Positions 16,732-41,679 of a DNA stretch of 54,439 bases are shown here, piece after piece (the first letter of the stretch is position 1; the number at the start of each line of letters is the position of its first letter). Where the stretch lies: positions 1-54,439 of the forward strand of contig JANXUX010000350.1 in NCBI GenBank assembly GCA_025351965.1. Direction: 5' to 3'. The position numbers were made by a program, and so were the translations under genes. The notes beneath the pieces were generated by a model. It had not been told where the DNA came from. It saw nothing but the letters and a program-made list of their open reading frames with translations, and did not search any database. This DNA is from Actinomycetes bacterium (lineage in GTDB: Bacteria; Actinomycetota; Acidimicrobiia; Acidimicrobiales; Ilumatobacteraceae).

Positions 16732-16744
16732 TTGGTCTGACCAA
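16732..16744. promoter_or_regulatory. GntR/FCD-type operator 1 (TTGGTCTGACCAA)
   Basis: A 13-bp palindrome around a central T, in the 46-bp gap between the divergent Rieske and amidohydrolase genes. A -10-like TAACGAT lies at 16724-16730 for the rightward gene, so the site would cover its transcription start, and its 3' edge runs into the AGGGA ribosome site. It belongs to the set of five such sites in the window. Confidence 0.75.
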
Positions 16745-16757
16745 AGGGACGCGCACC

Positions 16758-18149
16758 ATGAACAGCCAAACCATGAACAGCCAGTCACAGCCATTTCCGA
16801 CCTCGGCCATCATCGTCCGCGGGACGGTCATCACGATGAACGCTGCCCGCGACGTCATCTCCGACGGCGCCGTCGCAGTGGTCGGCGAGACCATCGCTGC
16901 GGTCGGCACGTACGCCGACGTCTCGGCTGACCATCCGGGAGCAATCATCATCGGCAACGCCGATCAGGTCGTGACGCCCGGGTACATCAACGCCCACCAG
17001 CACGTCACCGGCGACCGGCTGATCCACTCGTGCATCCCCGACGCGATCGACTCGCAGGAGGCCATCTTCGGCTGGGCCGTGCCGGTCCACAGTGCGCACA
17101 CCGGCGACGACGACGCGCTCTCGGCGTCGCTCGCCGCGGTCGAGGCGCTCAGCAACGGCATCACGTGCACGGTCGAGGCCGGCACCGTCGCCCATCCTGA
17201 GCGCGTCGCCGAATCGCTCCGGCAGTCCGGGATGCGGGCGATGCTCGGCCAGTGGGGCTGGGACGTCGAGAACGCGCCGTTCGCCGCGCCGGCGGACGAG
17301 GTGCTGGACCGCCAGCGGATCATGCTCGACAAGCTGCCCCCGGGCAACGGCCTCGTCGAGGCATGGGTGACGCTCGTCGGCCACGACCTGATGAGCGACG
17401 CCCTCGTCAGTGGCGCGTCGAACCTCGCCCGAGAACGCGGCGTCGGACTGACGTTCCACCTCTCCCCCCACAGCGGTGATGCGGTCAGCTACCTGGCCCG
17501 CACCGGTCGCCGCCCGGTGATGCACCTCGATGACCTGGGCGTGCTCGGTCGCCACGTGCTGATCGCCCACGGCGTGCATCTCGACGACGACGAGGTCGAG
17601 ACCGTGCTGCGCACCGAGACCGCGATCGCGTCCTGTCCGTGGGCGTACCTGCGCCTTGCCCAGGGCGTGACCGTCGCCGGGCGCCACGGCGACCTGTTCC
17701 TGCGCAATGGGCGGCTCGCCCTCGGCTGTGACTCCGAGAACGCCGGCGACATGGTCGACATCCTGCGCGCCGCGGCGCTGTTCGTCGGCCTCGAGCGGGA
17801 CCGGTCGATGGACGCGTTCAGCATCACCGGCCAGCACGGCTTGGAGCTCGCCACCATCCGCGGCGCCGAGGCGATCGGCAAGGCCGACACCATCGGCTCG
17901 CTCGAGGTAGGCAAGCAGGCCGACATCGTGGTGCACGACACCCGTGGCCCGCAGTGGCTGACGATGAGCACCGACCCAGTGCTGCAGGTCGTCTGGGCCA
18001 CCGACGGGCGCAGTGTGCACGACGTACTGGTTGCCGGTCGCCACGTCGTCGCCGACGGTCGGTGCATCTCGGTGGACGTCGATTCGTTGCGCGGAGCGGC
18101 ACTCGAACGGCGTGATCACTTCCTGGCCTCACGCGCCCCGATGGTCTGA
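16758..18149 (+). CDS. amidohydrolase, AtzA/TrzN/SAH-deaminase type (copy 1)
   Basis: A 463-aa metal-dependent amidohydrolase (PF01979) with the usual split beta-sandwich and TIM barrel. Metal ligands seen: His80 and His82 (NAHQH), a third His in LTFHLSPHS, a fourth in IAHGVHL, and the Asp in LGCDSENA. Members hydrolytically deaminate or dechlorinate heterocycles (s-triazines, guanine, cytosine, adenosine derivatives). It is a paralogue of the enzyme at 22486-23898, with matching C-terminal phrases such as DGRSVHDVLV. Preceded by operator 1 and followed by operator 2 and the VOC genes. The substrate is unknown. Confidence 0.92.
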   Translation: MNSQTMNSQSQPFPTSAIIVRGTVITMNAARDVISDGAVAVVGETIAAVGTYADVSADHPGAIIIGNADQVVTPGYINAHQHVTGDRLIHSCIPDAIDSQEAIFGWAVPVHSAHTGDDDALSASLAAVEALSNGITCTVEAGTVAHPERVAESLRQSGMRAMLGQWGWDVENAPFAAPADEVLDRQRIMLDKLPPGNGLVEAWVTLVGHDLMSDALVSGASNLARERGVGLTFHLSPHSGDAVSYLARTGRRPVMHLDDLGVLGRHVLIAHGVHLDDDEVETVLRTETAIASCPWAYLRLAQGVTVAGRHGDLFLRNGRLALGCDSENAGDMVDILRAAALFVGLERDRSMDAFSITGQHGLELATIRGAEAIGKADTIGSLEVGKQADIVVHDTRGPQWLTMSTDPVLQVVWATDGRSVHDVLVAGRHVVADGRCISVDVDSLRGAALERRDHFLASRAPMV

Positions 18150-18163
18150 GGAGTTCACCTCCG

Positions 18164-18176
18164 TTGGTCTGACCAT
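18164..18176. promoter_or_regulatory. GntR/FCD-type operator 2 (TTGGTCTGACCAT)
   Basis: A near-perfect copy of the regulon palindrome, 27 bp before the first VOC gene. TTGGTC can serve as a -35 with TACGCT at about 18190 as -10, so binding would block the polymerase. A half-site, ATGGTCTGA, is formed by the last codons of the preceding gene and may be chance. Confidence 0.7.
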
Positions 18177-18202
18177 CAGTCCATCTTTGCTACGCTCCCC
18201 TC

Positions 18203-18691
18203 ATGGCCAAGCCCAACACGCTGATCTTCGTCGACTTCCCGTCCGCGGACCCCGCTGCGTCCGCACGCTTCTACGCCGAGGTCTTCGGTTGGGAGTGCGA
18301 GCCGCGACCCGCCGACGTCTTCTACCGCATCGTGCCCGGAGGGCACTTCCCGCTCGAGGACGGCTCACCGTCGCCGATCGGCAACCTGCACATGGGCATC
18401 TACGACGCCGCAAACGCCCGTCCGCATCCCGACACCGCCGGCGTCGACCCGCGTGAGATGAGCCCCGGCGGCCGCTCGGCGCGGACATGGATCCTCGTCG
18501 GCGACGACACCCAGGACCGCATCCTCGACACGGCCGAACGCCTCGGCGGCACGGTGCTCTGGCGCAACCACTACTGGGCGGAGTTCAATGGCAACAACGG
18601 GGCGTTCACCGATCCATGGGGCAACACGTTCATCCTCTGGTCCAAGCCCGGCGAGAACCCCACCGAGCAGGAAGGTTTCACCCATGAATGA
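18203..18691 (+). CDS. VOC superfamily protein (glyoxalase/dioxygenase-like), gene 1
   Basis: A 162-aa protein with two beta-alpha-beta-beta-beta modules: FVDFPSADPAASARFYAEVFGW at the N-terminus and GAFTDPWGNTFILW at the C-terminus, the pattern of the vicinal-oxygen-chelate fold. It has fewer obvious metal ligands than classic extradiol dioxygenases (His in HFPLED, Glu in WAEFNG), so isomerase, lyase or binding roles are possible. First gene after operator 2. It overlaps the next VOC gene by 8 bp, so the two are coupled. Confidence 0.85.
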   Translation: MAKPNTLIFVDFPSADPAASARFYAEVFGWECEPRPADVFYRIVPGGHFPLEDGSPSPIGNLHMGIYDAANARPHPDTAGVDPREMSPGGRSARTWILVGDDTQDRILDTAERLGGTVLWRNHYWAEFNGNNGAFTDPWGNTFILWSKPGENPTEQEGFTHE

Positions 18692-19178
18692 GCCACTTCC
18701 CGGCGCCGTCGACACGCCTGCCGCCGCCTACAAGACCGGTCCGACACAGATGCGCTGGACGCACATCGCACTGCCCTGCACCGACATCGACAAGACGATC
18801 GACTGGTACGAGCGCTTCACCCCGCTGGAACTGCTGGACCGCCGCGAGGACGCCGACGGTCAGGGCGCCTGGCTCGGTCACCCCGACCAGGGCGACAAGC
18901 CGTTCATCCTCGTCCTGGTCAGCTTCACCCGCGACCAGGCCAAGGGCCCGCAGCCGGTCATGGCCCCGTTCGCACACATCGGCCTCGAGGTCACCAGCCG
19001 CGACGAGGTCGAGGACATCGCCCGCCGCGGCGAGGCCGAGGGTTGCTTGGCCTGGCCGCCCACCGACATGCCCGCCCCGATCGGCTACATCTGCGCGCTG
19101 AAGGACCCCGACGGCAACATGATCGAGTTCTCCCACAACCAGGGCGTCTACGCCAAGGCCCAAGAGGTCTGGGGTTGA
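18684..19178 (+). CDS. VOC superfamily protein, gene 2
   Basis: A 164-aa VOC protein from ATG 18684 (MNEPLPGAVDTP). Module signatures are MRWTHIALPCTDIDKTIDWYERF, with a first His ligand, FAHIGLEV with a second His, and ALKDPDGNMIEFSHNQG with the Glu ligand. This H/H/E set is that of metal-dependent VOC enzymes such as glyoxalase I, methylmalonyl-CoA epimerase and extradiol dioxygenases. It lies between the other VOC gene and a SnoaL-like gene, with overlaps on both sides. Ring chemistry in the island's pathway is likely; the step is not assignable. Confidence 0.88.
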   Translation: MNEPLPGAVDTPAAAYKTGPTQMRWTHIALPCTDIDKTIDWYERFTPLELLDRREDADGQGAWLGHPDQGDKPFILVLVSFTRDQAKGPQPVMAPFAHIGLEVTSRDEVEDIARRGEAEGCLAWPPTDMPAPIGYICALKDPDGNMIEFSHNQGVYAKAQEVWG

Positions 19179-19552: not shown

Positions 19553-19604
19553 GCCGCTGACCCATCGCCATCTGACACCCGTCTCTCCCGCAAGGACACA
19601 TCCC

Positions 19605-20585
19605 ATGGACACACGTACCCTCGGCCACAGCGGCATCGAGGTCACCACCGTCGCGCTCGGCACGATGATGTTCGGCGCCTGGGGCAACACCGATGTCGAC
19701 GAATGCCACCGGATGCTGCATCACGCGATCGACGCCGGCATCACACTGATCGACTGCGCCGACATGTACGACAACGGCGTCTCCGAGGAGATTCTCGGTG
19801 ACGCATTGCGCGGGCATCGCGACCGGGTCGTGCTGGCGACCAAGTGCGGAAACCCGATGGGCGGCGACATGTCCAAGAGCGGCCTGTCCGCTTCGTGGGT
19901 CACCCAAGCCTGTGACGACAGCCTGCGCCGCCTGGGCGTCGACCACATCGACCTCTACCAGATGCACCGGCCCGACCCGAACACGCCGTACGAGGAGACC
20001 CTCGGCGCGTTCCAGGCGCTCATCGCCGCCGGCAAGATCGGCGCCTACGGAACCTCGACGTTCTCGCCCGAGCAGATCGCCGGCGTGCACGACACCGCCA
20101 TTGCGCTCGGGATGCAGCTGCCGACGAGCGAACAGCCGCCCTACTCGGCGCTCGCTCGCGGCATCGAGACTGCCGTGCTCTCGGCGTGCCGCGCCAACGA
20201 GCTCGGCGTGATCGTCTGGGCGCCACTCAACGGCGGCTGGCTGACGGGCAAGTACCAGGGCGCGAACGACGATCCCTCGTCCCGCGCGACGCGCCAGGGC
20301 GACCACTTCGACGCCCGCGAGGCCGCCGAGTGGAACGCCAAGCACGACGCCGTCGAAGCCCTCACGACCATCGCCGCCGACGCTGGCCTGACGCTCAAGC
20401 AGCTCGCCCTCGGCTTCGTGCTGGACGACCCGACCGTCACCTCGGCCATCATCGGCCCACGCACCCTCGCCCAGCTCGAGGACCTCCTCGCCGCCGGCAC
20501 CCCCACCCTGCCCGCCGGCGCGCGCGACGCCATCGACGCCGTGATCGCGCCCGGCGTCAACCTCAACCCCCGCGACGCCGGCTGA
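19605..20585 (+). CDS. aldo/keto reductase
   Basis: A 326-aa (beta/alpha)8 reductase. It opens with TRTLGHSGIEVTTVALGTMMFG, and the catalytic tetrad is visible as Asp and Tyr in DCADMYDNG, Lys in VVLATKCG and His in YQMHRPD. The C-terminal NADPH site has SAIIGPRTLAQLED. It is closest in form to the YajO/AKR11-type soluble reductases. It ends the rightward VOC-VOC-SnoaL-AKR unit, 52 bp after the SnoaL gene, with a GC-rich hairpin 19 bp past the stop. It probably reduces a carbonyl intermediate with NADPH. Confidence 0.93.
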   Translation: MDTRTLGHSGIEVTTVALGTMMFGAWGNTDVDECHRMLHHAIDAGITLIDCADMYDNGVSEEILGDALRGHRDRVVLATKCGNPMGGDMSKSGLSASWVTQACDDSLRRLGVDHIDLYQMHRPDPNTPYEETLGAFQALIAAGKIGAYGTSTFSPEQIAGVHDTAIALGMQLPTSEQPPYSALARGIETAVLSACRANELGVIVWAPLNGGWLTGKYQGANDDPSSRATRQGDHFDAREAAEWNAKHDAVEALTTIAADAGLTLKQLALGFVLDDPTVTSAIIGPRTLAQLEDLLAAGTPTLPAGARDAIDAVIAPGVNLNPRDAG

Positions 20586-20603
20586 CGCGCAGGTTCGCCC
20601 GTT

Positions 20604-20627
20604 CCCGGCCCGTCGGACGGGCTCGGG
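20604..20627. terminator. GC-rich hairpin between convergent genes
   Basis: GCCCGT-CGG-ACGGGC forms a 6-bp stem with a 3-base loop, extended by CCCG/CGGG across a one-base bulge. There is no T-run, as is usual for actinobacterial terminators. It sits between the 3' ends of the aldo/keto reductase and the sigma-factor gene, so it could stop transcription from both sides. Confidence 0.6.
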
Positions 20628-20644
20628 ACCGCGCCCGGAGTCAC

Positions 20645-20689
20645 TCTCGGTGCATCCGCCGACACACGTCCGCGCCAGATGCACCGAGA
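20645..20689. repeat. 12-bp perfect inverted repeat with 21-base loop
   Basis: Arms TCTCGGTGCATC and GATGCACCGAGA pair perfectly across 21 bases. It lies beside the GC-rich hairpin in the same convergent gap (20586-20753), which otherwise holds no gene. A second terminator, an RNA-processing hairpin or a protein site are all possible. Confidence 0.6.
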
Positions 20690-22016: not shown

Positions 22017-22366
22017 TCGTTGGGCTGGAACGGGCGGACCTCGACCTTGCCCTGGCAGGCAGCCGAACCCTTGGCCGCCCACGCAAGAGCAGCGTCGAGG
22101 TCGGCGACGTCGATGATCCAGAATCCGCCGATGTGCTCCTTGGTCTCGAGGTACGGGCCGTCGGTGAGGATCGTCTCGCCGGACGACGCATCGACGACGG
22201 TCGCGGTCGAGGCGAGCTCGAGGCCGCCGCCGAAGACGAACACGCCGGCGGCGATGATGTCCTCGTTGAACGTGCCGACGTCGGCGAACATCTTCTGCTG
22301 ATCCTCGGATGAGACGGCTGAGTAGATCTCTTCGTTACCGTGGACGCAAAGCAGGTACTGGCTCAT
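22013..22366 (-). CDS. YCII/DGPF-domain protein, ECF42 partner
   Basis: A 117-aa alpha-beta barrel protein of the YCII-related family. The family motif appears as ILTDGPYLETKEHIGGFWIID (DGPF variant DGPY). The N-terminus MSQYLLCVHGNEEIYS is typical. Genes of this type sit next to ECF42 sigma factors and are often their main transcriptional targets. The stop overlaps the sigma-factor start, so the pair is translationally coupled. Its biochemical role is unknown for the family. Confidence 0.92.
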   Translation of the reverse strand: MSQYLLCVHGNEEIYSAVSSEDQQKMFADVGTFNEDIIAAGVFVFGGGLELASTATVVDASSGETILTDGPYLETKEHIGGFWIIDVADLDAALAWAAKGSAACQGKVEVRPFQPNE

Positions 22367-24983: not shown

Positions 24984-24987
24984 GGCT

Positions 24988-26032: not shown

Positions 26033-26698
26033 TCACAGGTCTGACGGCGTGTCGGTTGGCAGGTACGGCACCCGTTCCTGGTGGTACACCGCCTCGGGGA
26101 CGGCGCGCACGAAGCTGCGCGCGCCCGATCGCCCGATCGGCCCGAGCGCGAGCAGATCGATGCGCGGGTGATCGAGATCCGGCGATGCCAGCACGGAGTC
26201 GGCGATGACTGCGCACACGACCTCAGCCACCACGAGCACGACGCGGGCGAGGTCGCTGCCGAGGGGGATGGTCTGGTGCACCACGCACTCCAACCGGGCC
26301 GGCGCCTCGGCGACCGATGGCGAGCTGACCCGGCGCGAATCGATCCACTCGAAGCCGTGCATCGCTGCCTCGTCGACACCGTGCGGGTACTCCTTGGCGA
26401 TGCTCTCGATGTGGTCGGCGAAGACCTCCGAGCACACGTTGATGACGAAGTCGCCGGACGCGATGAGGTTCACGTACGAGCCTTTTGGATCACCGTCGGA
26501 TTCGCGCATCCCGAACGCGATGCCGATCAACGGCGGATCACCGGTGATGGGCAGGTAGTAGCTGAACGGGGAGAGGTTGCCCCGACCCTGCGCATCGCGG
26601 GTGGACACCATCGCGATCGGGCGGGGCACGACCAGCTGCGAGAGCAGGCCCTGGTTGGTGCCGGGCCCGTGCTCGGCGAAGTGGTAGACGTGTTCCAT
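26033..26698 (-). CDS. flavin reductase-like FMN-binding protein
   Basis: A 221-aa split-barrel protein. The ATG at 26698 overlaps the permease stop (TGATG); a GTG one codon earlier is also possible. FMN-binding elements include VPRPIAMVSTRDAQGRGNLSPFS and KGSYVNLIASGDFVINV, as in the DIM6/NTAB and HpaC-like family. Such proteins supply reduced flavin or carry out flavin-dependent reactions. With two Rieske oxygenases and no dedicated reductase in the window, an electron-transfer role is tempting but unproven, since it has no iron-sulfur cluster. Confidence 0.87.
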   Translation of the reverse strand: MEHVYHFAEHGPGTNQGLLSQLVVPRPIAMVSTRDAQGRGNLSPFSYYLPITGDPPLIGIAFGMRESDGDPKGSYVNLIASGDFVINVCSEVFADHIESIAKEYPHGVDEAAMHGFEWIDSRRVSSPSVAEAPARLECVVHQTIPLGSDLARVVLVVAEVVCAVIADSVLASPDLDHPRIDLLALGPIGRSGARSFVRAVPEAVYHQERVPYLPTDTPSDL

Positions 26699-31638: not shown

Positions 31639-31726
31639 GGCTGTCTCCCCCTTGGAGATGTACGTGCTGGTGTGATGGGCAATCGGTGAACTGTGCAATC
31701 GGATCAACGTGGGCGCAGTTGCCCGG

Positions 31727-32374
31727 TCACCTCCTCAGCTCGTCGACAATGGTCTTCTTGTGCAGGTACGCACTCGTCAGCGGTTCTCCCGCGGCGAGTG
31801 CCTGCACGACACGGTCCTCGGCAGCCGCGTAGCGCGCGGAGGCCTCGAGGACGTCGTCCAACTCGGCGTGGGGGATCCGCACGCATCCGGTGTCGTCGGC
31901 CACGACCGAGTCCAGCGGGTCGATGACGACCCCGTCGATACTGACTGGTGCGCCGACCTCGACGACGTGCGCCGTTCCGTTGGGACCAACGACGCATTGC
32001 GCCGAGGCGTAGACGGGAAGGCCGATCGCGGCCATGGTCGGGCGGTCGCGTACGAAGCCGTCGACGAGCACGCCGCTCGCATCGTTGGCGTGCGCGGCCG
32101 TCGACATGATCTCGCCCCACACTGCGCCATGCACCTGCGCGCCACCGCCGACGACGACGAACCGGTCGGTGAGATCGCGCGAGAGCATCGAGTACAGCGG
32201 TGCCAGTCCGGGACCCGCCAAGGCGGTGACGATCGAGACCGTCACGACCTTGCCGATGGTTGGTGTGGTGGCGGCCACGATCGGGTACAGCGACGGTGTC
32301 AGCCAGCCGTCGAGGCTCCAGAGTTTGAGGACGTCGGCGATCGCCGACACCGGCGGGATGACGTGGCCGGTCAC
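31727..32374 (-). CDS. RraA-family protein (HMG aldolase / oxaloacetate decarboxylase type)
   Basis: A 215-aa protein starting at a GTG that overlaps the Rieske stop (GTGA). The fold signature is VVVGGGAQVHGAVWGEIMSTA, followed about 20 residues later by VDGFVRD, whose Arg-Asp pair binds substrate and metal in class II pyruvate aldolases of this family. True RraA RNase E inhibitors lack a full catalytic set, so an enzyme is likely. It could split a 4-hydroxy-2-oxo acid into pyruvate or oxaloacetate at the end of the pathway. Last gene before an 88-bp gap and the importer genes. Confidence 0.87.
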   Translation of the reverse strand: MTGHVIPPVSAIADVLKLWSLDGWLTPSLYPIVAATTPTIGKVVTVSIVTALAGPGLAPLYSMLSRDLTDRFVVVGGGAQVHGAVWGEIMSTAAHANDASGVLVDGFVRDRPTMAAIGLPVYASAQCVVGPNGTAHVVEVGAPVSIDGVVIDPLDSVVADDTGCVRIPHAELDDVLEASARYAAAEDRVVQALAAGEPLTSAYLHKKTIVDELRR

Positions 32375-33552
32375 GACTCGGCCTCGGCGCTCGTCGGCCA
32401 GTGCTGGCGGTACCGCTTGACCAGCCAGCGGTTGAACTGGACGTGGCAATCCTCCTGCCACGAGTAGCGACCTCGGGCGGCGTAGCGGCTGTGCATGCCG
32501 CGCTGCACCTTCGTGGTCGCGTCCTGATCCTGCTTGACGAAGACCTGCACGCCGGCATCGCTGATCGCGAACAGATGGTCGAACATCGGGTGCTCGAGCG
32601 CCGAAGGATCGAAGAGGTAGCCGATCTCGACATCGATCGTGTCGGCGGTCTTCGGGCGGACGATGAAGAAGAACGCCTGATCCGGTGCGGTCCCGAAGCA
32701 CAGCGTCGGCGGCATCAGCGCGAACGTGGAGCGCCAGCGCTCCTCCTCGGTCAGCTTGGGAAAGATCGGCATCAGCGCCTTGGTCGTTGCGTTGAAGCCG
32801 CCATCGATGTGCGTGTAGCCGTTGGTCCGGAACATCACGTTCGAGGTCTCCGAGTACGGCACCGGAAACCCGGCCAGCTCGCTGGGGCAGAAGTCCTGGA
32901 TCGTGTGGTGCAATCGGTTGGCGTGGTAGCCGTCGTTGAAGTTCTCGAACATGACCTTCCAGTTCCAGGGAAGATCGGTGAGCGTGAACGTGCCCGGACA
33001 GACCGCCGTCTCGAGGTCGTAATTGGCGAGGTACGGCTCGTACGACCCGAGCGTCGGAGCAAGCGGCTCGGCGTCGAGATCGAAGTGGACGAACACGAAG
33101 CCCTGCCACAGCTCGACTCTGAGCGGGGGCAGCGGGAAGTCCGACTTGGCGAAGTTCTCGGTGCGCTCCATCGCCGGTGCGCCGAGCAGGCGACCGGTGA
33201 GGTCGTAGCTCCACAGGTGGTAGAGACACGTGAACTTGGTGCAGTTGCCCTCGCCCTCCGCGACCTGCATACCGCGGTGCTGGCAGATCGAGGAGAAGGC
33301 CCGGATCGAGGAGTCCTTGGCGCGGGTGATGATGATCGCCTCGTTGTTCACGGTCGCGGTGAAGTAGTCACCGACGTTGGGGATGCGGCTGGCCCGGCCG
33401 ACACACAACCACTCGTGGGCGAACAGCGCCTCGCGCTCGAACTCGAGGAACTCGGCCTCGGTGTAGATCACCGGCGGCATCGTGACCGCATTGGCGACAT
33501 CGACGACGGACGCGTCGAAGGACGCGAGGAGTTGAGGATTGAGCATGGTCAT
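32371..33552 (-). CDS. Rieske [2Fe-2S] oxygenase, alpha-subunit type
   Basis: A 393-aa oxygenase. Rieske ligands are in SICQHRGMQ (C-x-H) and, 17 residues later, CLYHLWSYD (C-x2-H). The mononuclear iron site is ENFNDGYHANRLHH. The size and the C-terminal SRPBCC domain match ring-hydroxylating alpha subunits and the choline/carnitine/betaine monooxygenase group. No beta subunit, ferredoxin or reductase gene is adjacent. It overlaps the acyl-CoA ligase (upstream) and RraA gene (downstream) by 4 bp each. Oxidation of the imported compound is likely. Confidence 0.93.
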   Translation of the reverse strand: MTMLNPQLLASFDASVVDVANAVTMPPVIYTEAEFLEFEREALFAHEWLCVGRASRIPNVGDYFTATVNNEAIIITRAKDSSIRAFSSICQHRGMQVAEGEGNCTKFTCLYHLWSYDLTGRLLGAPAMERTENFAKSDFPLPPLRVELWQGFVFVHFDLDAEPLAPTLGSYEPYLANYDLETAVCPGTFTLTDLPWNWKVMFENFNDGYHANRLHHTIQDFCPSELAGFPVPYSETSNVMFRTNGYTHIDGGFNATTKALMPIFPKLTEEERWRSTFALMPPTLCFGTAPDQAFFFIVRPKTADTIDVEIGYLFDPSALEHPMFDHLFAISDAGVQVFVKQDQDATTKVQRGMHSRYAARGRYSWQEDCHVQFNRWLVKRYRQHWPTSAEAES

Positions 33553-35069
33553 ACAGGAATCCGTCCTTCGGGCGCGCTCTCCGCGGCGTCGTCACGCAGC
33601 AGGAACTTGCGGATCTTGCCGACGCTCGTGTGTGGCAACTGGTCGACCAACGTGATGTCACGGGGACGTTTCGCCTTCGTCAACCGTTGGGCGCACCACG
33701 CGTGGAGTGCATCGAGATCGGGTGGCGAGGCGGGATCGGAGGCAACCACGAACGCCACCGGAACCTCGTCGCGGATCTCGTCGGGATGGCCGACGACCGC
33801 GACCTCGAGCACACCGGGGAAGCCGGCGATGACCTGCTCGACCTCGACGGTCGACACGTTCTCGCCAGCCACCTTGAGCACGTCGGAGCGTCGTCCGTCG
33901 AACACGAAGCGCCCGTCGGCGGAGCGATGGGCGCGGTCGCCGGTCAGGAACCAACCGTCGCGAAAGCTCGCGTCCGTCGTCGCCGGGTCGTCGAGGTAGC
34001 CGGCGAAGAGGGTGATGCCGCGATCGCCGCCGACGACGATCTCGCCGCCACGCAGATCGACGACGCAACCCGACGTCGGGTAGCCCATCGCCTCGGGCAA
34101 CGGACCCTCGGCGGGTTCGCTCAACACGGCCGGGATGGTCTCGGTCATCCCGTAGAGCTGACGCGGTGCGCAGCCGAAGAGACCCTTCAGCGTCGCGTGC
34201 TGGTCGCGTGTGATGTTCATCGCGTACCAGCAGTGCTGCAGCGCGACATCGGCGACGGGCGTCGCGCCGCGGCTGAGGATCATCCGGATCGGTGCGGCGA
34301 ACAGGCTTGCGTGCGTCGCCCGGTGGCGAGCCACCTGGGACAGGAAACCACTCGCCGAAAACGTGTGCATCAAGGCCACCGACGCGCCGGCCCAGATCGC
34401 CGAGGCGAAGCTGTAGAACTGCGCGTTCGCGTGGAACAGCGGCAGCACGACGAGTTGGCGGTGCTCGGCGCGCAGTCCGCTCGCCGCCGCCATCGTCGCG
34501 CCGGCGAAGGCATAGTTGGCCTGGGTGATCTCGACGCCCTTGGGCACACCGGTCGTGCCGGACGTGAACATCACCGCGGCACGATCGGTCAGCGCCGGGG
34601 TCGGCCACGTCGAGAGGGCGTCGCCGGCGAACATCGCGAGCACGGTGTCGGCCTCGTCGATCTCGATGATCGTCACGTCGGTGCCGGCCGCCGCAGCACG
34701 GTAGGTCTCGGCTCGACCGGGCGCGCAGAACCCCACGACCGGTCGAGTGCGGCGGATGTGGCCGGCCAGCTCTGGCCCGGCGGCCATTGGATCCGACGGC
34801 ACCAGCCACGCGCCGAGACGGACCGTCGCGATCCAGATCGCGACGAAGCCCGGTGAGTTGGTGAGTGCCACGCTGACCGCGCAGCCGGGCTCGACGCCGA
34901 GCGTGCGCAGCACGTGCGCGCAGCGCGACGTGAGCTCGTCGAAGGCCGCGTAAGTCCACTCGGTGACAGTGCCGTCGGCCCCCTCGAAGACGAGGAAGAT
35001 GTCTGTCGGTGCGCGTTCCACCGAACGCTCCCACGCGTGGTTCAACGTGACAGCGTCCGGCCAGCTCAC
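33549..35069 (-). CDS. AMP-forming acyl-CoA synthetase/ligase
   Basis: A 506-aa ANL-superfamily enzyme. P-loop MFTSGTTGVPKG is near 170, the A5 phrase YGMTETIP near 300, A8 hinge FVFDGRRSDVLKVAGENVS near 400, and the C-terminal catalytic Lys in TSVGKIRK. It is similar in size and order to crotonobetaine/carnitine-CoA ligase CaiC and to 3-hydroxybenzoate-type ligases. It activates a carboxylate to its CoA thioester, probably a ring-cleavage or side-chain acid. Coupled by overlaps with HyuB and the Rieske gene. Confidence 0.93.
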   Translation of the reverse strand: MSWPDAVTLNHAWERSVERAPTDIFLVFEGADGTVTEWTYAAFDELTSRCAHVLRTLGVEPGCAVSVALTNSPGFVAIWIATVRLGAWLVPSDPMAAGPELAGHIRRTRPVVGFCAPGRAETYRAAAAGTDVTIIEIDEADTVLAMFAGDALSTWPTPALTDRAAVMFTSGTTGVPKGVEITQANYAFAGATMAAASGLRAEHRQLVVLPLFHANAQFYSFASAIWAGASVALMHTFSASGFLSQVARHRATHASLFAAPIRMILSRGATPVADVALQHCWYAMNITRDQHATLKGLFGCAPRQLYGMTETIPAVLSEPAEGPLPEAMGYPTSGCVVDLRGGEIVVGGDRGITLFAGYLDDPATTDASFRDGWFLTGDRAHRSADGRFVFDGRRSDVLKVAGENVSTVEVEQVIAGFPGVLEVAVVGHPDEIRDEVPVAFVVASDPASPPDLDALHAWCAQRLTKAKRPRDITLVDQLPHTSVGKIRKFLLRDDAAESAPEGRIPV

Positions 35070-36661
35070 GCGCTGGACTCACTCAGCGCAGGGGCGCCGT
35101 AGCCGCCGCCACCGGGGAGGTCGAGGCGGACGTGATCGCCCGGGGCGAGCGTGACACGGGCCTGGGTGGTGACGTTCTCACCGTTGACCGTGAACGATCC
35201 GGCGGCACCGGCGTCGCCCCCGAAGATGCCCTCCGGTGGCACGGCGAGGCGAGACGTGACTGCGTTCAACTGCCACGGGCGCTCGGTGTCGACGGTGAAC
35301 TCGATCGTCTGGCCGAGGCCACCGATCTGTTGGCCGTTGCCGCCGCTGCCGGTGCGCAGTTCCTTACGGTGGAAGTAGATCGGTGCGGATGCCTCGACGA
35401 CTTCGATCGGCACGGCCGCGATGCCGGTCGGGAACGAGCACGCCGACAGGCCCGACTTGTGGGCACGGGCACCGACGCCACCGGCGTAGGTGAACATCGC
35501 AGTGATGAACGGCCGGCCGTCGGGATGGTTGCCGCTGACCTGCATCGTCCACACCGCACCCGAACCCTCGGCCATCGACTGGTCGGGCTTGATCTGCGCC
35601 AACGCCTTGAGCAGCGCATTCGGCAGGAACATCCCGACGACGTGACGGGCGGTGCACGGCTGCGGTGAGACGGCGTTGACGATGGAGCCGACCGGCGCTT
35701 CGACCTTGATCGGCTCGAGGCTGCCGTGGTTGTTCGGCAGTTCCGGGTTGAGCACCGCTCGGATCGTGAACGTCGTATAGGCGTGGGTGTAGTTCTTGAC
35801 GACGTTGATGCCCGACGCGCTGGCCCCCGACGAGCCCTCGTAGTCGACGAGGATCTCGCCCTTGACGGGGTCGACGGTGATCGCACAGACGATCAGGATC
35901 CGGCTGCCGTCGGTGAGGTCCAGCTCGGCCTGGGCGCGGTACGTGCCGGCCGGCAGCTCGCGGATGCTGGCCCGCGTCGCGGCCTCGGAGCGGGTGATGA
36001 TCTCGTCGGCCAGGGCCTCGATGTCGTCGAGCGAGTGACGATCGCAGAGCGACCGCAGGCGCTGCGCACCGACCTCGCCGGAGGCCATCTGGGCATGGAG
36101 ATCGCCGGCCATGTGGTCGGGCTGGCGGACGTTGGAGAGGATGAACTTCCAGACGTCGGTGTTGCGCTCACCCTGGATCATCAGCCGGCAGATGGGGATC
36201 CAGAGACCCTCCTCGAACACGTCGCGGCCGCCGGCGCCGATGCCGTAGCCGCCGACGTCGGTGTGGTGGATCGTCGAGCCGAAGAACGCAATGACCCGTC
36301 CCTTGCGGAACACCGGGTACAGCACCGTGACATCGAGCAACTGGCCGGCCGTCTTGTAGGGATCGTTGGTGATCAGTACGTCGCCTTCAGCAAGCGAATC
36401 GGTGGGGTACTCCTCGAGCATGGCCGATGCGGCCCGAGCGAGGGAGTTGATGTGACCGGGCGTGCCGGTGACGGCCTGGGCCACCATTCGGCCGCGACGG
36501 TCGAAGACGGCGTTGGCGAGGTCCCCGGCCTCACGCACGATCGGGGAGAACGCGGCGCGCTGCAACGCGCGGGCTTGCTCGTTGACCGTGGCGATCAGGC
36601 TCTGCCAGAGGACTTCGAGCTCGATGGGGTCGAATGTGGGGCTCATGCCTGACTCACTCAT
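35066..36661 (-). CDS. hyuB: hydantoinase/oxoprolinase family, B subunit (HyuB)
   Basis: A 531-aa HyuB-family protein: IELEVLWQSLIATVNEQARALQRAAFSPIVREAGD at the N-terminus, HINSLARA, GDVLITNDPYKTAGQLLD, and GGGGYGAP at the C-terminus are all family marks. With HyuA it forms the ATP-dependent enzyme that opens N-methylhydantoin or 5-oxoproline, or carboxylates ketones (acetone and acetophenone carboxylases). The gene order HyuA then HyuB is the usual one, with an ATGA overlap. Which of these reactions applies is not visible. Confidence 0.93.
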   Translation of the reverse strand: MSESGMSPTFDPIELEVLWQSLIATVNEQARALQRAAFSPIVREAGDLANAVFDRRGRMVAQAVTGTPGHINSLARAASAMLEEYPTDSLAEGDVLITNDPYKTAGQLLDVTVLYPVFRKGRVIAFFGSTIHHTDVGGYGIGAGGRDVFEEGLWIPICRLMIQGERNTDVWKFILSNVRQPDHMAGDLHAQMASGEVGAQRLRSLCDRHSLDDIEALADEIITRSEAATRASIRELPAGTYRAQAELDLTDGSRILIVCAITVDPVKGEILVDYEGSSGASASGINVVKNYTHAYTTFTIRAVLNPELPNNHGSLEPIKVEAPVGSIVNAVSPQPCTARHVVGMFLPNALLKALAQIKPDQSMAEGSGAVWTMQVSGNHPDGRPFITAMFTYAGGVGARAHKSGLSACSFPTGIAAVPIEVVEASAPIYFHRKELRTGSGGNGQQIGGLGQTIEFTVDTERPWQLNAVTSRLAVPPEGIFGGDAGAAGSFTVNGENVTTQARVTLAPGDHVRLDLPGGGGYGAPALSESSA

Positions 36662-38787
36662 TGCGGTGCCTTCCAGTCGGCGATCAGGGATCCGTCCGGG
36701 GCGACGACAACGGTCCAGTTCGGTCGGATCACCGCGGTCGTCTCACGCTCTTCGACGATGACCGGACCAACGATGGTCTGGCCGACGCCGAGGTCGGTGC
36801 GCCGGTAGACCGGCGTCTCGTGCAGTGCCCCAGCCCGGGTGAACCGCACGAGACGCCGGCCTGTGGCGGCACCCACGGTCGTACCGACGGTTGCCGTCGG
36901 CTCGACCGGGTGTGCGGCTGCGAACGCCGAGAGCCGCCAGGTGACCGCCTCGATGCCGACATCGGGGATCGTGAGCCCATAGATACGCCGATAGTCGGTC
37001 TCGAATTGCAGGGTCACCTGGGCGTCGGTCGCCGGCCACACGTCGCCCTCGCCGAACCAGAGCGTGATCTCGTTGCCCTGGCCGAGGTAGCGGGCGTCGA
37101 GGCCGTAGCGGAAGTTGATCTGCTCGAGACGCACACCGGCGGCGCTGAGCACGCGGACACCCTCGGCGCGCAGCTCGTCGAGCAACGCGTCACGATCTGC
37201 TGGCGAGATGGTCGCCAACGGACGGACCATGCTGCGCGCGAGGTCGATGCGCACCGGGGTGACGAGCGTGCCGAACGCAGAGAGCACGCTGGCGTTGGTC
37301 GGGAACACCACCCGGGTGGACTCGAGTAGCTCGGCCACGCCACACGCGTGGATCGGGCCGGCACCGCCGAACGCGAGCACGGTCACGCCGCGCAGGTCTT
37401 CGCCCTGCTCGACGGCGTGCATACGCGACGCGGCCGCCATGTTCTGGTTGACGAGCTCGTGGATGCCGGCGGCGGTGTCGCCGATCGGCAGACCGAGCTG
37501 GGCCGCCACCGAGGCGAGTGCGGACCGGTTGGCCTCGAGGTCGAGGGGCATGTCACCACCGAGGAAGTACTCGGCGTCGAGCAGGCCGAGCTCGAGGTCG
37601 GCGTCGGTGACCGCTGGGCGGGCACCGCCGCGGCCATAGCAGGCGGGGCCGGGATCGGCGCCGGAGGACTCCGGGCCGACCTTGAGCAGACCCAGCTCGT
37701 CGAGCCGGGCGAGGCTGCCCCCGCCGGCACCGATTTCGACGAGGTCGACGGACGGTACCGACACCGGGAAGCCGGAGCCCTTCTTGAAGCGGTAGATGCG
37801 GGCGACCTCGAATGTGTTCGTCAGCTGGGGCTCGAAGTCGGTGATCAGGCACGACTTGGCGGTGGTACCGCCCATGTCGAAGCACAGCAGTCGCTCCTCG
37901 CCGAGGCGGCGGGCGAACCAGCTGCCGGCCAGCGCGCCGGCCGCGGGACCGGATTCGACGAGACGGATCGGCGACTGCGCGGCATCTTCGGCGGCGACCA
38001 CGCCGCCGTTGGACAGCATCATCAGCACCGAACCGCCGAAGCCTTCGGCGGCGAGCCACTTCTGCAGTTCGTCGAGGTATGGCCCGATGACCGGCATCGT
38101 CGCTGCGTTGCACGCTGTCGTGATCATGCGCGGGTACTCGCGGATCTGCGGCGAGATGTCCGACGAGATGCACACCGGCACACCGAGCTCGCGACGCAAG
38201 TGCTCGGCGATCACCCGCTCGTTGGCGGGGTTGGCGTAGGAGTTGATCAGGCAGACGCCGACGGCCTCGACGCCTGCGGCGCGGAGCTGGTCGGTGATGA
38301 GGTTCATATCTTCGGCGGAGGGGACGGCCACGACCTGGCCGAGGGCGTTGGTGCGCTCGGCGATCTCGACGACGCGGTCACGCGGGACCGGGGGCGCCGG
38401 GAACTCGATCTGGAGGTCGTACATGTCGTAGCGGTGCTCGTCGCGGATCTCGAGCGTGTCGCCGAAGCCCGATGTCGTGACGACGCCAGCCTTGCCGATC
38501 TTGCCCTCGATCAGTGCGTTGGTGATCAGTGTCGTCGCATGCACGATCGGCGCGGTGATGTCCGCGGGACGAACGCCGGCCTTGGCGAGCAGTTGGCGGA
38601 CACCCGTGCGCACACCGTCGAGCGGCGCCCTCGGTGTCGTCAGGGTCTTCTCCACGACGACGCGCCCGGACGTGGCATCGAGCAGGACGAGGTCGGTGAA
38701 CGTGCCACCGATGTCGACGGCCAGACGCCAGTCCGGCGAGACGCCGGACGTGGTCGGAGTGCTGACGGCGATGGTGACGTCGCTCAT
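36658..38787 (-). CDS. hyuA: hydantoinase/oxoprolinase family, A subunit (HyuA)
   Basis: A 709-aa ATP-binding subunit. The ASKHA-type phosphate-1 loop VDIGGTFTDLVLLD is at residue 25, HATTLITNALIEGK near 90, CFDMGGTTAKSCLI near 310 and AFGGAGPIHACGVAELL near 480. The length fits the bacterial HyuA group. It uses ATP to activate a lactam, imide or ketone for hydrolysis or carboxylation by HyuB. Placed between the cupin and HyuB genes with 4-bp overlaps at both ends. Confidence 0.94.
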   Translation of the reverse strand: MSDVTIAVSTPTTSGVSPDWRLAVDIGGTFTDLVLLDATSGRVVVEKTLTTPRAPLDGVRTGVRQLLAKAGVRPADITAPIVHATTLITNALIEGKIGKAGVVTTSGFGDTLEIRDEHRYDMYDLQIEFPAPPVPRDRVVEIAERTNALGQVVAVPSAEDMNLITDQLRAAGVEAVGVCLINSYANPANERVIAEHLRRELGVPVCISSDISPQIREYPRMITTACNAATMPVIGPYLDELQKWLAAEGFGGSVLMMLSNGGVVAAEDAAQSPIRLVESGPAAGALAGSWFARRLGEERLLCFDMGGTTAKSCLITDFEPQLTNTFEVARIYRFKKGSGFPVSVPSVDLVEIGAGGGSLARLDELGLLKVGPESSGADPGPACYGRGGARPAVTDADLELGLLDAEYFLGGDMPLDLEANRSALASVAAQLGLPIGDTAAGIHELVNQNMAAASRMHAVEQGEDLRGVTVLAFGGAGPIHACGVAELLESTRVVFPTNASVLSAFGTLVTPVRIDLARSMVRPLATISPADRDALLDELRAEGVRVLSAAGVRLEQINFRYGLDARYLGQGNEITLWFGEGDVWPATDAQVTLQFETDYRRIYGLTIPDVGIEAVTWRLSAFAAAHPVEPTATVGTTVGAATGRRLVRFTRAGALHETPVYRRTDLGVGQTIVGPVIVEERETTAVIRPNWTVVVAPDGSLIADWKAPQ

Positions 38788-39206
38788 GATCCGGTCACCG
38801 TCCGCGGCGGTGCGAAGACATCGAGGATCCAGACTTCGTTCATCTCGTCGTCCCCGATGAACTTGCTGTCGCCGTGCCAGATGTTGACCCCGGCGAGGTA
38901 CGCCTCTCCGGCGCCGAGAGTCACCCGGCGGTCGTCGTCCGGATCACCGATCCGGAAGTCGAGTGCGCCGCGCATGATCACCCCGAGCTGCTCGTTGGCG
39001 GTGTGGCTGTGCAGGATCGATCCAGCGGAGCCGCCGGTGATCCGCCAGAACCACAGCTCGAGGTGCTCACCGATGATGACGCGACGGCGGAAGCCGGGGC
39101 GGTCGGTCTCGATGAACTCGTCCTCCTCGAAGAAGTAGCAGTAGTGCTCGGCGCCAGGTCCCGTCGGTGGGTTGCCAGGCGTGTCGTTGTCGGTTTCGGT
39201 AGTCAC
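38784..39206 (-). CDS. cupin-domain protein
   Basis: A 140-aa single cupin. The first motif is SILHSHTANEQLGVIMRGALDFRIGD, with His-x-His and Glu/Gln-type metal residues, and the second is AYLAGVNIWHGDSK with a His. This supports a metal-bound small-molecule enzyme or sensor. Family members beside ring-oxidation genes include isomerases, dioxygenases and lyases. It overlaps GntR and HyuA genes by 4 bp each, so it belongs to the operon. Step unknown. Confidence 0.87.
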   Translation of the reverse strand: MTTETDNDTPGNPPTGPGAEHYCYFFEEDEFIETDRPGFRRRVIIGEHLELWFWRITGGSAGSILHSHTANEQLGVIMRGALDFRIGDPDDDRRVTLGAGEAYLAGVNIWHGDSKFIGDDEMNEVWILDVFAPPRTVTGS

Positions 39207-39907
39207 AACAGACGCTCCACCATGCGACGTTCGACATCGTCCAGGTGGGCCACGACGGCTGAGACAGCCTTACGGGTGTGGCCTTTGACGACGGCGTCTG
39301 CAATGGCTTGATGGGCCACCAGCGACGAGGTCACGATGTCCGTGACCTCGCTGCGGTTGACCTCTGCGTACAGCAAGGACGCGAGGTCGCCGGAGCGGAA
39401 GAGTGCGGCGAGGGCCTTGCTGTGGACCTCGTTGAGCAAAGGGTTGCCACAGGCCCGGCCGAGGGCGGAGTGGAAGCGGTGGTCGAGCTCGCGGAACACC
39501 TCGAGATCGGTGGTCATCTGTTCGGCGATCGAGGCGATCTCCTCACGCTGGTCGTCTGTCGCCCGGCGTGCGGCGAAGTCGGCGATGGCCGGCTCGATGA
39601 CCTGACGGACCTCGAACAGCTGGGTGACGAGCGTCTTGCGGTCATCCCCGGTGAAGTTGACGTCGGGGAGGCGCTCGGCCACGACGGACCGGTTGCCGCG
39701 GCGCTCGATGTAGCCGGCGATGACTAGACCCTGGATGGCTTCGCGCACCGAAGTGCGCGCGACGCCGAACTCCTGGCAGAGGACGCGCTCGGCCGGTAGC
39801 GGTGTGCCGGGGGCGAGTTGGCCGGTGTGGATCGCGTCGGCGAGGCGCTGGCGGATCTCCGCCGAGACGGTCACGCGCGCGACAGGGTCGAACGAGGAGC
39901 CGCTCAC
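39203..39907 (-). CDS. GntR-family regulator, FCD class
   Basis: A 234-aa regulator; I start at a GTG that overlaps the VOC gene stop (GTGA). The N-terminal winged helix (15-80) has LPAERVLCQEFGVARTSVREAIQGL and IERRGNRSVV. The C-terminal 150 residues are the all-helical FCD ligand domain, with ELDHRFHSALGRACGNPLL carrying metal/ligand His residues. FCD GntR proteins bind TGGTCnGACCA-like palindromes, and five such sites are present here, two directly upstream of this operon. It probably represses the island until a pathway intermediate binds, including its own synthesis. Confidence 0.93.
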   Translation of the reverse strand: MSGSSFDPVARVTVSAEIRQRLADAIHTGQLAPGTPLPAERVLCQEFGVARTSVREAIQGLVIAGYIERRGNRSVVAERLPDVNFTGDDRKTLVTQLFEVRQVIEPAIADFAARRATDDQREEIASIAEQMTTDLEVFRELDHRFHSALGRACGNPLLNEVHSKALAALFRSGDLASLLYAEVNRSEVTDIVTSSLVAHQAIADAVVKGHTRKAVSAVVAHLDDVERRMVERLL

Positions 39908-40401
39908 GATGCGCTCGAGTCGGCGAGCAGCGGATCGAAGTGAGCGCGCTCTGCGGCGATGTCCAGTGGGCGGACGATGGCCTGGTGCTCGGCCTCGCCC
40001 CAGTGCGCTGCGGGGACCAGCCACATGACCTCGAACTCGAGGCCGTCGGGATCCATCGCGTAGAGGCTCTTGTTCGCGCCGTGGTCACTGGCGCCCTTCA
40101 ACGCGCCGGCCGCGGCGAGGCGCTCGCGCATCTCGTCCAACTCGGCGAGGGTGGGCACCTCCCAGGCGATGTGGTACATCCCGACCGTACGCTGACCGGC
40201 TTCGCTGGGCGCTGCACCGTCGCCGATGCTGAAGAACGCGATGTCGTGGTGGTTGTCCGACGCCGGAGCACGCATGAAAACGAACGCTCCGGTCGGGTGA
40301 TCGACGACAGTGGAGAAGCCGAGCACCTCCTCGTAGAACCGCTGGGTGCGACGCGCATCACGCACGTACAACACTGCGTGGTTCATGCCTGTGATCGGCA
40401 C
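39904..40401 (-). CDS. VOC-family extradiol-dioxygenase-like protein
   Basis: A 165-aa VOC protein. I start at GTG 40401, which has a GGGAGG ribosome site five bases upstream; an ATG five codons later is the other option. Metal ligands seen: His in MNHAVLYV, His in MYHIAWEV and Glu in LEFEVMW, the H/H/E set of type I extradiol dioxygenases. The C-terminus is longer than in glyoxalase I. It is the first gene of the main minus-strand operon, after two operators, so it may perform an early ring-opening step. Confidence 0.88.
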   Translation of the reverse strand: MPITGMNHAVLYVRDARRTQRFYEEVLGFSTVVDHPTGAFVFMRAPASDNHHDIAFFSIGDGAAPSEAGQRTVGMYHIAWEVPTLAELDEMRERLAAAGALKGASDHGANKSLYAMDPDGLEFEVMWLVPAAHWGEAEHQAIVRPLDIAAERAHFDPLLADSSAS

Positions 40402-40420
40402 ACTTCCCTCCCAAAGGCTC

Positions 40421-40467
40421 GGACTGCCACTGTTGGACTGCCACTGTTGGACTGCAAGGTTGGACTG
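40421..40467. repeat. tandem GGACTG repeats in the main operon's leader
   Basis: Two identical 14-bp units (GGACTGCCACTGTT) are followed by a diverged third (GGACTGCAAGGTT) and a fourth GGACTG that runs into the operator. They lie between promoter and start of the VOC gene, so they would be transcribed. The four-fold repeat of a half-site-like hexamer suggests either slippage or extra contacts for a regulator. Confidence 0.75.
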
Positions 40468-40480
40468 ATGGTCAGACCAT
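40468..40480. promoter_or_regulatory. GntR/FCD-type operator 3 (ATGGTCAGACCAT)
   Basis: A perfect 13-bp palindrome. It overlaps the predicted -10 of the leftward promoter, so bound repressor would exclude polymerase. Its centre is 40 bp from that of operator 4, close to four helical turns, a spacing that allows two dimers on the same DNA face. Confidence 0.8.
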
Positions 40481-40504
40481 AGTCGCGGACTCCGAGTCGC
40501 GCAA
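40476..40504 (-). promoter_or_regulatory. predicted sigma-A promoter of the main catabolic operon
   Basis: On the minus strand TTGCGC (40499-40504) and TATGGT (40476-40481) are 17 bp apart. The -10 hexamer overlaps operator 3 and operator 4 is just upstream of the -35. The leader to the VOC start is about 70 bases and contains the tandem repeats. Confidence 0.6.
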
Positions 40505-40507
40505 GGC

Positions 40508-40520
40508 TTGGTCAGACCAA
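40508..40520. promoter_or_regulatory. GntR/FCD-type operator 4 (TTGGTCAGACCAA)
   Basis: A perfect 13-bp palindrome in the gap between the acetamidase stop and the main operon's promoter. It is the reverse-complement equivalent of operator 1. With operator 3 it makes a tandem pair. Confidence 0.8.
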
Positions 40521-40537
40521 CATCGCAAGGCGGCGGG

Positions 40538-41611
40538 TCAGATGAAGATGTTGCGGGCGATGCCGGCGTGGCAGCCGAGCGTGCCGTCCACGACCTGGGT
40601 GACGCCGAGGTCCATCGCCACAGACGACAGCGAGTAGGCGTCATCAGCGGTGAGGTCGAGGTGGGTCTGCATCAGCCACAGCATCTGCTCGGCGGCCATC
40701 TTCATCGCTTCGTTCAAGTCCACTCCGAAGCCGTGGGTGTACCAATGACTGGCGGTCTCGAGCAGCGGCGAGGTGATGCCGATGCCCTTGACGACCGAGA
40801 CCTGGATGGTGGCGGTGAGCGACGCCTCGATCGCCGTACCGCAGATCTCGCCGTCGCCCTGGGCGAAGTGCGGATCTCCGACGTACAGGTTCCCGCCCGG
40901 GGTGAACACCGGGTAGCACATCGTCGCTCCGGGGCCGACACGCCAGTTGTCGACGTTGCCTCCGTACACGCCCGGCGGTATGGACGACAGCTTGCCGCTC
41001 TCGGCCGGGGCCACACCCATCACGCCGAAGTGCGGGCGAACGGGCACGCTGACGACGCGACTGAACGGTTGGCGAGCCTCGGCGTTCGGCTCGCTGATCA
41101 CACCCGGCAGGTCGTACATCGGTCGCGCCGTGAAGTCGAAGGCGAACTCGGGATGGGCATGTGCGCAGAAGTCGGGGCCCATCTCGTCGAGCCCGTAGAT
41201 GGTGATCCGCTCCTTGGCGAACGTGGAGTAGAGCAAGCCCCAGTTGGCAGCACAGTTCGAGCCGTGCGGCAGCCGTGGCTTCATGTCGAGAATGCGCACC
41301 ACGAGCGTGTCGCCGACCTCGGCACCCTCGACCGCGACCGGGCCGGTGAGGATGTGTACGCCCGGCCCGCGCTCGACTTCGGGGATGGCCGCCCAGATCG
41401 CCGTGATGCCGTCGTCCATGAGCAGGTCCGGGGCGTCGCCTGCGTGGTGGGTGATGGCCTCGATCTCCACCGTGTCGCCGCTACGGATCGTCAGCCGCGC
41501 CGGCTCGTCCCGGTCGATGTAGCCCCAGTACACCGTCTCCGGCGTGGCCGGCAGGTGATGGTGCGTGCCCGAGGCGCGGTGCGGCACAGATGCAGTGATG
41601 TCCAGAGCCAT
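40538..41611 (-). CDS. acetamidase/formamidase family hydrolase
   Basis: A 357-aa FmdA/AmdA-family enzyme (PF03069): GYIDRDEPARLTIRSGDTVEIEA, HILTGPVAVEGAEVGDTLVV, MGVAPAESGKLSSIPPGVYGGNVDN and VGDPHFAQGDGEICGTAIE are the family landmarks. It hydrolyses formamide or short amides to an acid and ammonia in the cytoplasm. Operator 5 lies 56 bp upstream. It stops just before operator 4, on the same strand as the main operon but probably with its own promoter. A role in freeing nitrogen from a ring-cleavage product is an inference. Confidence 0.94.
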   Translation of the reverse strand: MALDITASVPHRASGTHHHLPATPETVYWGYIDRDEPARLTIRSGDTVEIEAITHHAGDAPDLLMDDGITAIWAAIPEVERGPGVHILTGPVAVEGAEVGDTLVVRILDMKPRLPHGSNCAANWGLLYSTFAKERITIYGLDEMGPDFCAHAHPEFAFDFTARPMYDLPGVISEPNAEARQPFSRVVSVPVRPHFGVMGVAPAESGKLSSIPPGVYGGNVDNWRVGPGATMCYPVFTPGGNLYVGDPHFAQGDGEICGTAIEASLTATIQVSVVKGIGITSPLLETASHWYTHGFGVDLNEAMKMAAEQMLWLMQTHLDLTADDAYSLSSVAMDLGVTQVVDGTLGCHAGIARNIFI

Positions 41612-41666
41612 GGGCGATCACGGTAAGACGCGCAGATGAACGGCGTGTTTCCCACCCTTGAACGCC

Positions 41667-41679
41667 GTGGTCTGACCAT
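41667..41679. promoter_or_regulatory. GntR/FCD-type operator 5 (core TGGTCTGACCA) upstream of the amidase
   Basis: The 11-bp core is a perfect palindrome about a central T. An extra half-site, TGACCAA, follows at 41681-41687. The site stands between the amidase start and the diguanylate cyclase stop, so it most likely controls the amidase gene. Confidence 0.72.

Follow-up and report, generated by a model that had tools for sequence, protein, structure and literature searches.

Regulators of the FadR subfamily, which join a winged helix-turn-helix (wHTH) to an FCD domain, have the site consensus TKGT/ACMA, its two halves set 3 nt apart (Suvorova et al. 2015, PMC4494728). In that survey, residues paired with the G/C of the TKGT box are an Arg at position 28 of the helix-turn-helix, Ser 40 and Gly 59; extra half-boxes, weaker and with a function left open, lie 7–12 nt from the site centre in 13 groups of the subfamily; and divergently transcribed regulated operons are discussed. 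Among E. coli proteins, LldR has the box AAnTGGTCnGACCAnTT, two of which occur per binding region (PMC10272880), and NanR binds a (GGTATA)3 operator as three cooperative dimers (PMC8012715). The core string discussed below is also present in PMC3626644. The present analysis concerns a 54,439-nt window, the whole stretch of contig JANXUX010000350.1 that was analysed, from a bacterium of the Ilumatobacteraceae (class Acidimicrobiia). It carries an island of catabolic genes with a GntR-FCD gene and five exact copies of the palindrome TGGTCnGACCA, which are, with high probability, the operators of one local regulon under that GntR-FCD protein, its binding being predicted from sequence.

The locus resembles the described systems in several respects. 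As in the FadR subfamily (PMC4494728), the regulator combines a wHTH with an FCD domain, and its five presumed sites leave 3 nt between GT and AC. The 11-bp core of the LldR box (PMC10272880) is identical to that of the window, and the pairing of boxes recurs at the main operon here, the one that holds the GntR-FCD gene; unlike LldR, the flanks differ (a third half-site is present here), the targets are others, and the regulator scores 83.7 bits against the 311-bit LldR cut-off. A claim made earlier for this DNA, that the core is the known site shape of FCD regulators, agrees with both TKGT-n3-ACMA and the LldR box. The part of PMC4494728 covered showed neither this orthologous group nor its targets, and a search that left subscription journals mostly outside found nothing relevant on this gene set or regulon. 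A search on half-sites in GntR operators brought up, besides PMC4494728, a paper on archaeal YtrA and one on IclR.

Palindromic cores and a third half-site

The five exact cores in the window compare with 0.06 expected, and none of 100 shuffles held five or more. They lie where an earlier note, made from the letters alone, had placed them, its 13-bp spans being the 11-bp cores plus one base per side (Table 1). Its statements that all are intergenic and upstream of island genes, and that no other copy occurs in the window, agree with gene calls made by codon GC and Pfam for all five sites, and with the absence of a sixth exact core from the window. Two cores (40469 and 40509) occupy the gap that separates the formamidase stop (40538) from the first codon of the main operon (GTG at 40401 or ATG at 40386), which opens with VOC0 and the GntR gene; the others precede VOC1, the formamidase gene and a divergent Rieske/amidohydrolase pair. 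The centre base is A or T (W) in all five. Cores with up to two mismatches number 32 in the window, the five exact ones included, which is background (33.8 expected), so that only the exact core carries signal. Mismatched cores were accordingly dropped as extra targets; with at most one mismatch, the genome-wide count was 179 against 156 for the control.

The draft genome (4.84 Mb in 456 contigs, 93.5% complete) holds 11 exact cores, against three for the reversed control pattern, and five of the 11 fall in the window, which is 1.1% of the assembly. The probability of such clustering is about 1e-7, a descriptive value only because the window was chosen for having sites. Five of the six cores elsewhere lie inside open reading frames (ORFs) for an enoyl-CoA hydratase, a lipoate ligase-like protein, a PLP enzyme, a DMFA2_C protein and a PucR-type regulator, and four of these five have G or C at the centre. 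The sixth, C186 (L013:3077), is A/T-centred and lies 187 bp from a partial ORF resembling Usp (universal stress protein), with no confident genes around it and no Rfam family at gathering score on its contig. The third half-site described below is absent from all six, and none was counted as a target. Many equal sites far from catabolic genes, which the earlier note had named as the outcome that would speak against its regulon, did not appear in the full-genome scan, which added only these six, five within ORFs and one of unclear context.

Conservation extends past the core and runs as TCAGTCCA in an alignment of 27 sites (five from the window and 22 from close relatives). A half-site G(A/T)CC(A/G) stands exactly 8 bp past one arm, its centre 11 nt from that of the core, in 67 of 80 sites, with 0–3 occurrences at each of the other offsets from 5 to 30. 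Of the five window sites, those at 18165, 40469 and 41668 have it; those at 16733 and 40509 do not. The operator first described had thus the right core and too short an extent. The extra half-boxes of PMC4494728 differ in this respect: here the box stays at a constant 11 nt from the centre throughout those 67 sites and is often identical to a true arm. Of the 13 sites without it, six have a C/G centre and adjoin GntR genes of the more distant group; by eye, these six carry weak half-boxes on either side. Pairs of cores beside distant GntR genes were seen at L085:10172, L089:9859, L092:9714, L093:10491, L098:1661 and L102:19395; the GntR-proximal core of these pairs is C/G-centred and, by eye, shows four half-sites at 8-bp steps. 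The main-operon leader contains a 14-bp tandem repeat at 40421–40467 (3.4 copies, unit GGACTGCCACTGTT), which holds further GGACTG copies resembling the third half-site.

Conservation with the regulator and its targets

Used as a query against genome contigs, the regulator gave 15 matches, namely 13 orthologues (69–90% identity, the 90% match, L035, spanning residues 2–82 only) and two distant partial ones. The orthologous loci come from metagenome-assembled genomes labelled Acidimicrobiales, Ilumatobacteraceae, Acidimicrobiaceae, or only Actinomycetes, Actinobacteria or Actinomycetota. All 13 carry the exact core, 22 copies in total, beside the regulator operon or its targets, and neighbouring intergenic columns are little conserved around them. 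The partial-match loci (L036 and L037, 29–35% identity) have no core and were left out of pooled counts. With the window proteins mapped on the loci, formamidase carries an upstream core in L025, L027 and L033; in L026, L028, L030 and L035 the core separates VOC1 from a divergently oriented VanA-type Rieske gene; and in L023 and L024 it stands directly before GntR, with no VOC0 match preceding. The cores follow genes, not map position, across rearranged gene orders.

That the palindromes arose by chance or as recent repeats without a regulatory role is already contradicted by these results and retains hardly any probability. It could draw on the tandem repeat in the main-operon leader, where local duplication does occur, and on the genomic core without an evident target (C186); against this stand the excess of cores in the window, their presence in every orthologous locus despite little-conserved intergenic neighbours, and a half-site spacing fixed at 8 bp.

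The association reaches further. A regulator homologue at E <= 1e-40 was found in 26 of 298 genomes of the window's order, the window genome included. Regulator loci from the 25 other positive genomes, mostly at 44–53% identity, have the site at the same targets, and the core is present in 20 of 23 more distant regulator-holding loci, so that the comparison of sites beside orthologues proposed in the earlier note came out in its favour at both distances and in rearranged gene orders. Two loci (L094 and L095) were dropped before the counts as belonging to the same contigs as L028 and L032; near relatives were kept (L025/L027, L032/L033, L092/L093 and L104/L106, sharing 252 to 5852 60-mers), and a further motif-fetched locus, L137, stands outside the 40 that were pooled. 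In these 40 loci, 70 of 75 cores lie at most 250 bp upstream of an island-gene homologue, 26 of them (of the 75) upstream of the GntR homologue itself. For 29 half-site-permuted palindromes used as a control, 7 of 35 occurrences were upstream and 18 of 35 inside island genes. Removal of the motif-fetched loci L100, L104, L106 and L108 leaves 66 of 70 cores upstream (a count by subtraction). Four of the five cores outside the 250-bp rule are near island genes by eye (L026:14880, L029:9586, L102:3533 and L109:18057) and L100:3552 is unexplained; one counted core, L097:4657, lies inside HyuB, probably by chance. The W-centred core totals 108 copies in the 26 regulator-positive genomes, against 30 for the control (hand sums, for these genomes only). 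In one distant locus, L088:4657–10207, the HyuB, HyuA and GntR matches each fall in two pieces, which suggests sequencing frameshifts or gene decay.

The 19-mer TGGTCWGACCATCWGWCCA, which includes the third half-site, occurs in 12 of the 298 genomes and its reversed control in none. All 12 are among the 26 regulator-positive genomes, the other 14 being without an exact copy; the hypergeometric probability is about 1e-14 if genomes are independent, which they are not, and the 12 span six families. The window genome has three copies, all in the window. A looser form was found in six of 396 genomes drawn from the phylum, five of them from the window's family and one from another order of the same class. 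It was the 19-mer alone that led to this last genome; VOC2 and BMP importer genes adjoin the site there, and a GntR homologue of 38% identity lies at a distance of 127 bp.

It is improbable that another FCD regulator of the genome binds the sites and the operon's GntR gene is merely a target. The genome does have five FCD genes, the core fits a consensus common to many FCD proteins (PMC4494728), and the island of L026 holds a second GntR-FCD-like gene (L026:7923–8609), 42% identical to the window regulator. However, loci of roughly 3.4 kb holding each of the other four FCD genes are free of TKGT-n3-ACMA sites, and the proteins of these four genes gave three weak partial matches and one absence of match to this regulator; the 19-mer tracks this GntR group across the 298 genomes, and over a third of the pooled cores lie before the GntR homologue itself.

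Regulator, promoters and the proposed circuit

The regulator has the architecture of the GntR/FCD-FadR subfamily, scoring 62.7 bits for Pfam GntR (cut-off 27) and 76.4 bits for FCD (cut-off 24.3). It falls below the NCBIfam equivalog cut-offs of NanR (95.6 against 260 bits, its best NCBIfam match), LldR (as given above), PdhR (65.1 against 330), GlcC (54.2 against 301) and FadR (47.1 against 189). The structure model (mean pLDDT 86.7, pTM 0.65) has a helical C-terminal domain, and the best Foldseek matches are generic FCD-type structures at a TM of about 0.5, NanR being the second. In the homologue alignment, R42 (26/27), S54 (26/27) and G72 (24/27) fit the residues paired with G/C in the TKGT box, by our own reading of the alignments with FadR numbering. 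All 27 aligned homologues have D143, H147, H200 and H222; this Asp and three His pattern, which we take to be the signature of metal-binding FCD domains, is consistent with an organic acid as the putative ligand.

The core also bears a fixed relation to promoter-like sequence. In promoter-site lists made by hand from locus maps, TA precedes the core, giving TATGGT, at 23 of 24 main-operon sites against 0 of 10 at VOC1 and 0 of 4 at formamidase. TATGGT fits a TAnnnT -10 element, and TAnnnT follows the site by 4–20 nt in 10 of 10 VOC1 promoters. Given the core on the -10-like hexamer in the one case and TAnnnT just after the site in the other, a bound protein would block RNA polymerase, and the overlap at the main operon suggests autorepression. 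Repression is the direction of action that we infer. Activation, or a different action per site (repression of the main operon and activation of VOC1, for example), is unlikely: the TAnnnT position at VOC1 would suit an activator too, whereas the core over the hexamer in nearly every main-operon promoter is in a repressor's position, and the FCD regulator NanR is a repressor that its ligand weakens (PMC8012715). A reading of the third half-site as a -35 element was rejected, because its letters match a palindrome arm and because its place in the main-operon promoter is downstream of the -10-like hexamer.

In the proposed circuit, a dimer of the regulator would bind TGGTCWGACCA, and the third half-site G(A/T)CCA, found in the same orientation 8 bp beyond one arm at most promoters, would hold a second or shifted dimer beside the first. 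Once bound, the regulator would keep RNA polymerase off the promoter of its own operon and off the formamidase, Rieske/amidohydrolase and VOC promoters. Its release, by a pathway metabolite that is probably an organic acid sitting near the FCD Asp/His site, would turn on the import of a nitrogen-containing compound and its oxidative breakdown. As the earlier note had it, the GntR-FCD gene is inside the main operon, as second gene of an overlapping run (4-base overlaps between VOC0, GntR, cupin, HyuA, HyuB, AMP-ligase and Rieske genes, from 40401 down to 32371; the GTG start of the regulator overlaps the VOC0 stop as GTGA). This run is very likely one transcript, so that the regulator would control itself.

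A further possibility, which we put forward tentatively and hold to be somewhat less probable than its opposite, is that the operator fuses a palindrome with an 8-bp direct repeat (TGGWCTGA-TGGTCWGA-CCA); one dimer would bind the palindrome and a second the third half-site, cooperatively and on overlapping DNA. Read on the other strand, TGGWCTGA-TGGTCWGA is an 8-bp direct repeat, and the NanR repeat, written TGGTATAW, also has eight letters (PMC4494728), a likeness in the written length of the repeat. Unlike NanR, which binds repeats, this system also has the full palindrome; and NanR cooperativity runs through a 32-residue N-terminal extension (PMC8012715), whereas the first wHTH helix of the window regulator starts at residue 15 in the model, leaving about 14 residues ahead of it. 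A short conserved segment (F7/R12/T14) precedes that helix in the homologue alignment.

Several points weigh against a single local regulon under the main-operon GntR-FCD protein. A sigma-70 consensus scan of three site regions other than that at 16733 found no promoter, so the -10 reading rests on conservation. Three loci from the 25 other regulator-positive genomes lack an exact core at the regulator (L087, L088 and L111; one-mismatch cores are present in L088 and L111 and none in L087), the 40 pooled loci are related to one another and not independent, and the draft genome is incomplete. Exact cores also occur in genomes without a close GntR homologue (G071, eight copies; G016, seven; G155, six; G273 and G027, five each), mostly one per contig and scattered; the core alone is not diagnostic of the regulator, and other proteins, such as another FCD regulator in G071, G016 or G155, may use it. 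Finally, no site in the window belongs to the importer, the distal ADH or the second amidohydrolase; these genes may depend on read-through from the main operon or on other regulation. Of the self-contained regulon with its own repressor that had been claimed, the regulon is supported, in that the site travels with the regulator and its targets, and the repressor role is the presumed one argued for above.

Island genes and biological meaning

Gene assignments are collected in Table 1. The VOC-AKR operon first described is borne out as regards the site upstream of VOC1; membership of the aldo/keto reductase (AKR) is uncertain, its start (19605) lying 427 bp past the VOC2 end. The NCBIfam matches listed for the island enzymes, which bear on the substrate, are all below cut-offs. 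Inside the island, a gene for a DUF6596 ECF-type sigma factor is paired with a YCII-domain gene at 20754–22366, without a palindrome. Near the right window end (49783–53645), genes for an NMT1/THI5-like binding protein, an ABC ATPase and a UreD-like protein hint at a separate nitrogen-related cluster.

Table 1. Predicted operators and island genes of the window
Feature	Position	Strand	Exact 11-bp core	Remarks
Core operator TGGTCTGACCA	16733..16743	none	16733-16743	Between divergent Rieske (start 16711) and amidohydrolase (start 16758) genes; no third half-site
19-bp operator TGGTCTGACCATCAGTCCA	18165..18183	+	18165-18175	Core plus third half-site; upstream of VOC1 (start 18203)
19-bp operator TGGTCTGACCATCAGTCCA	40461..40479	-	40469-40479	Upstream of VOC0-GntR main operon; overlaps minus-strand TATGGT -10-like hexamer
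Second, distal core operator of main operon	40509..40519	-	40509-40519	No third half-site
Operator TGGTCTGACCATCTGACCA	41668..41686	+	41668-41678	Upstream of formamidase (start 41611); third half-site on gene-distal side
VanA-type Rieske oxygenase	15689..16711	-		Profile matches
Amidohydrolase (TRZ/ATZ / 5'-deoxyadenosine deaminase-like)	16758..18149	+		Below curated NCBIfam cut-offs
VOC1	18203..18691	+		Glyoxalase_6
VOC2	18684..19178	+		Pfam Glyoxalase on longer ORF 18588-19178
Aldo/keto reductase (AKR)	19605..20585	+		Profile match; possibly VOC-operon member
BMP/PnrA-type ABC importer	26698..31707	-		Binding protein, ATPase, two BPD_transp_2 permeases
Rieske ring-hydroxylating oxygenase alpha subunit	32371..33552	-		Profile matches; end of overlapping run
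AMP-binding acyl-CoA ligase-like enzyme	33549..35069	-		Profile matches
Hydantoinase/oxoprolinase B (HyuB-like)	35066..36661	-		Profile matches
Hydantoinase/oxoprolinase A (HyuA-like)	36658..38787	-		Profile matches
Cupin-like protein	38784..39206	-		Cupin_2 26 bits, just below 27.2 cut-off
GntR-FCD regulator, second main-operon gene	39203..39907	-		Pfam GntR 2.6e-17, FCD 3.3e-21
VOC0 (glyoxalase/dioxygenase superfamily), first main-operon gene	39904..40401	-		Pfam Glyoxalase 1.3e-15; start GTG 40401 or ATG 40386
Formamidase/acetamidase family enzyme	40538..41611	-		Profile matches

The regulatory circuit is very probably real and of a familiar kind. It provides a regulator, an operator and targets predicted with good confidence for uncultured bacteria, and would tie two Rieske oxygenases, HyuA/HyuB-like enzymes, a CoA ligase, a formamidase, an amidohydrolase and probably the BMP-type importer into one pathway. 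The regulatory type is ordinary; the operator detail is worth testing, as a third half-site at a fixed distance in most sites is a clean system for probing the role of extra half-boxes at GntR-family operators. If the fused operator is true, it would stand midway from the classical palindromes of FadR and LldR to the direct repeats of NanR, would be conserved in two or more orders of a single bacterial class, and would give a function to the extra half-boxes reported by Suvorova et al. (2015, PMC4494728). If the regulon is true, it would be an undescribed one through which Acidimicrobiia take up a nitrogen compound and break it down oxidatively.

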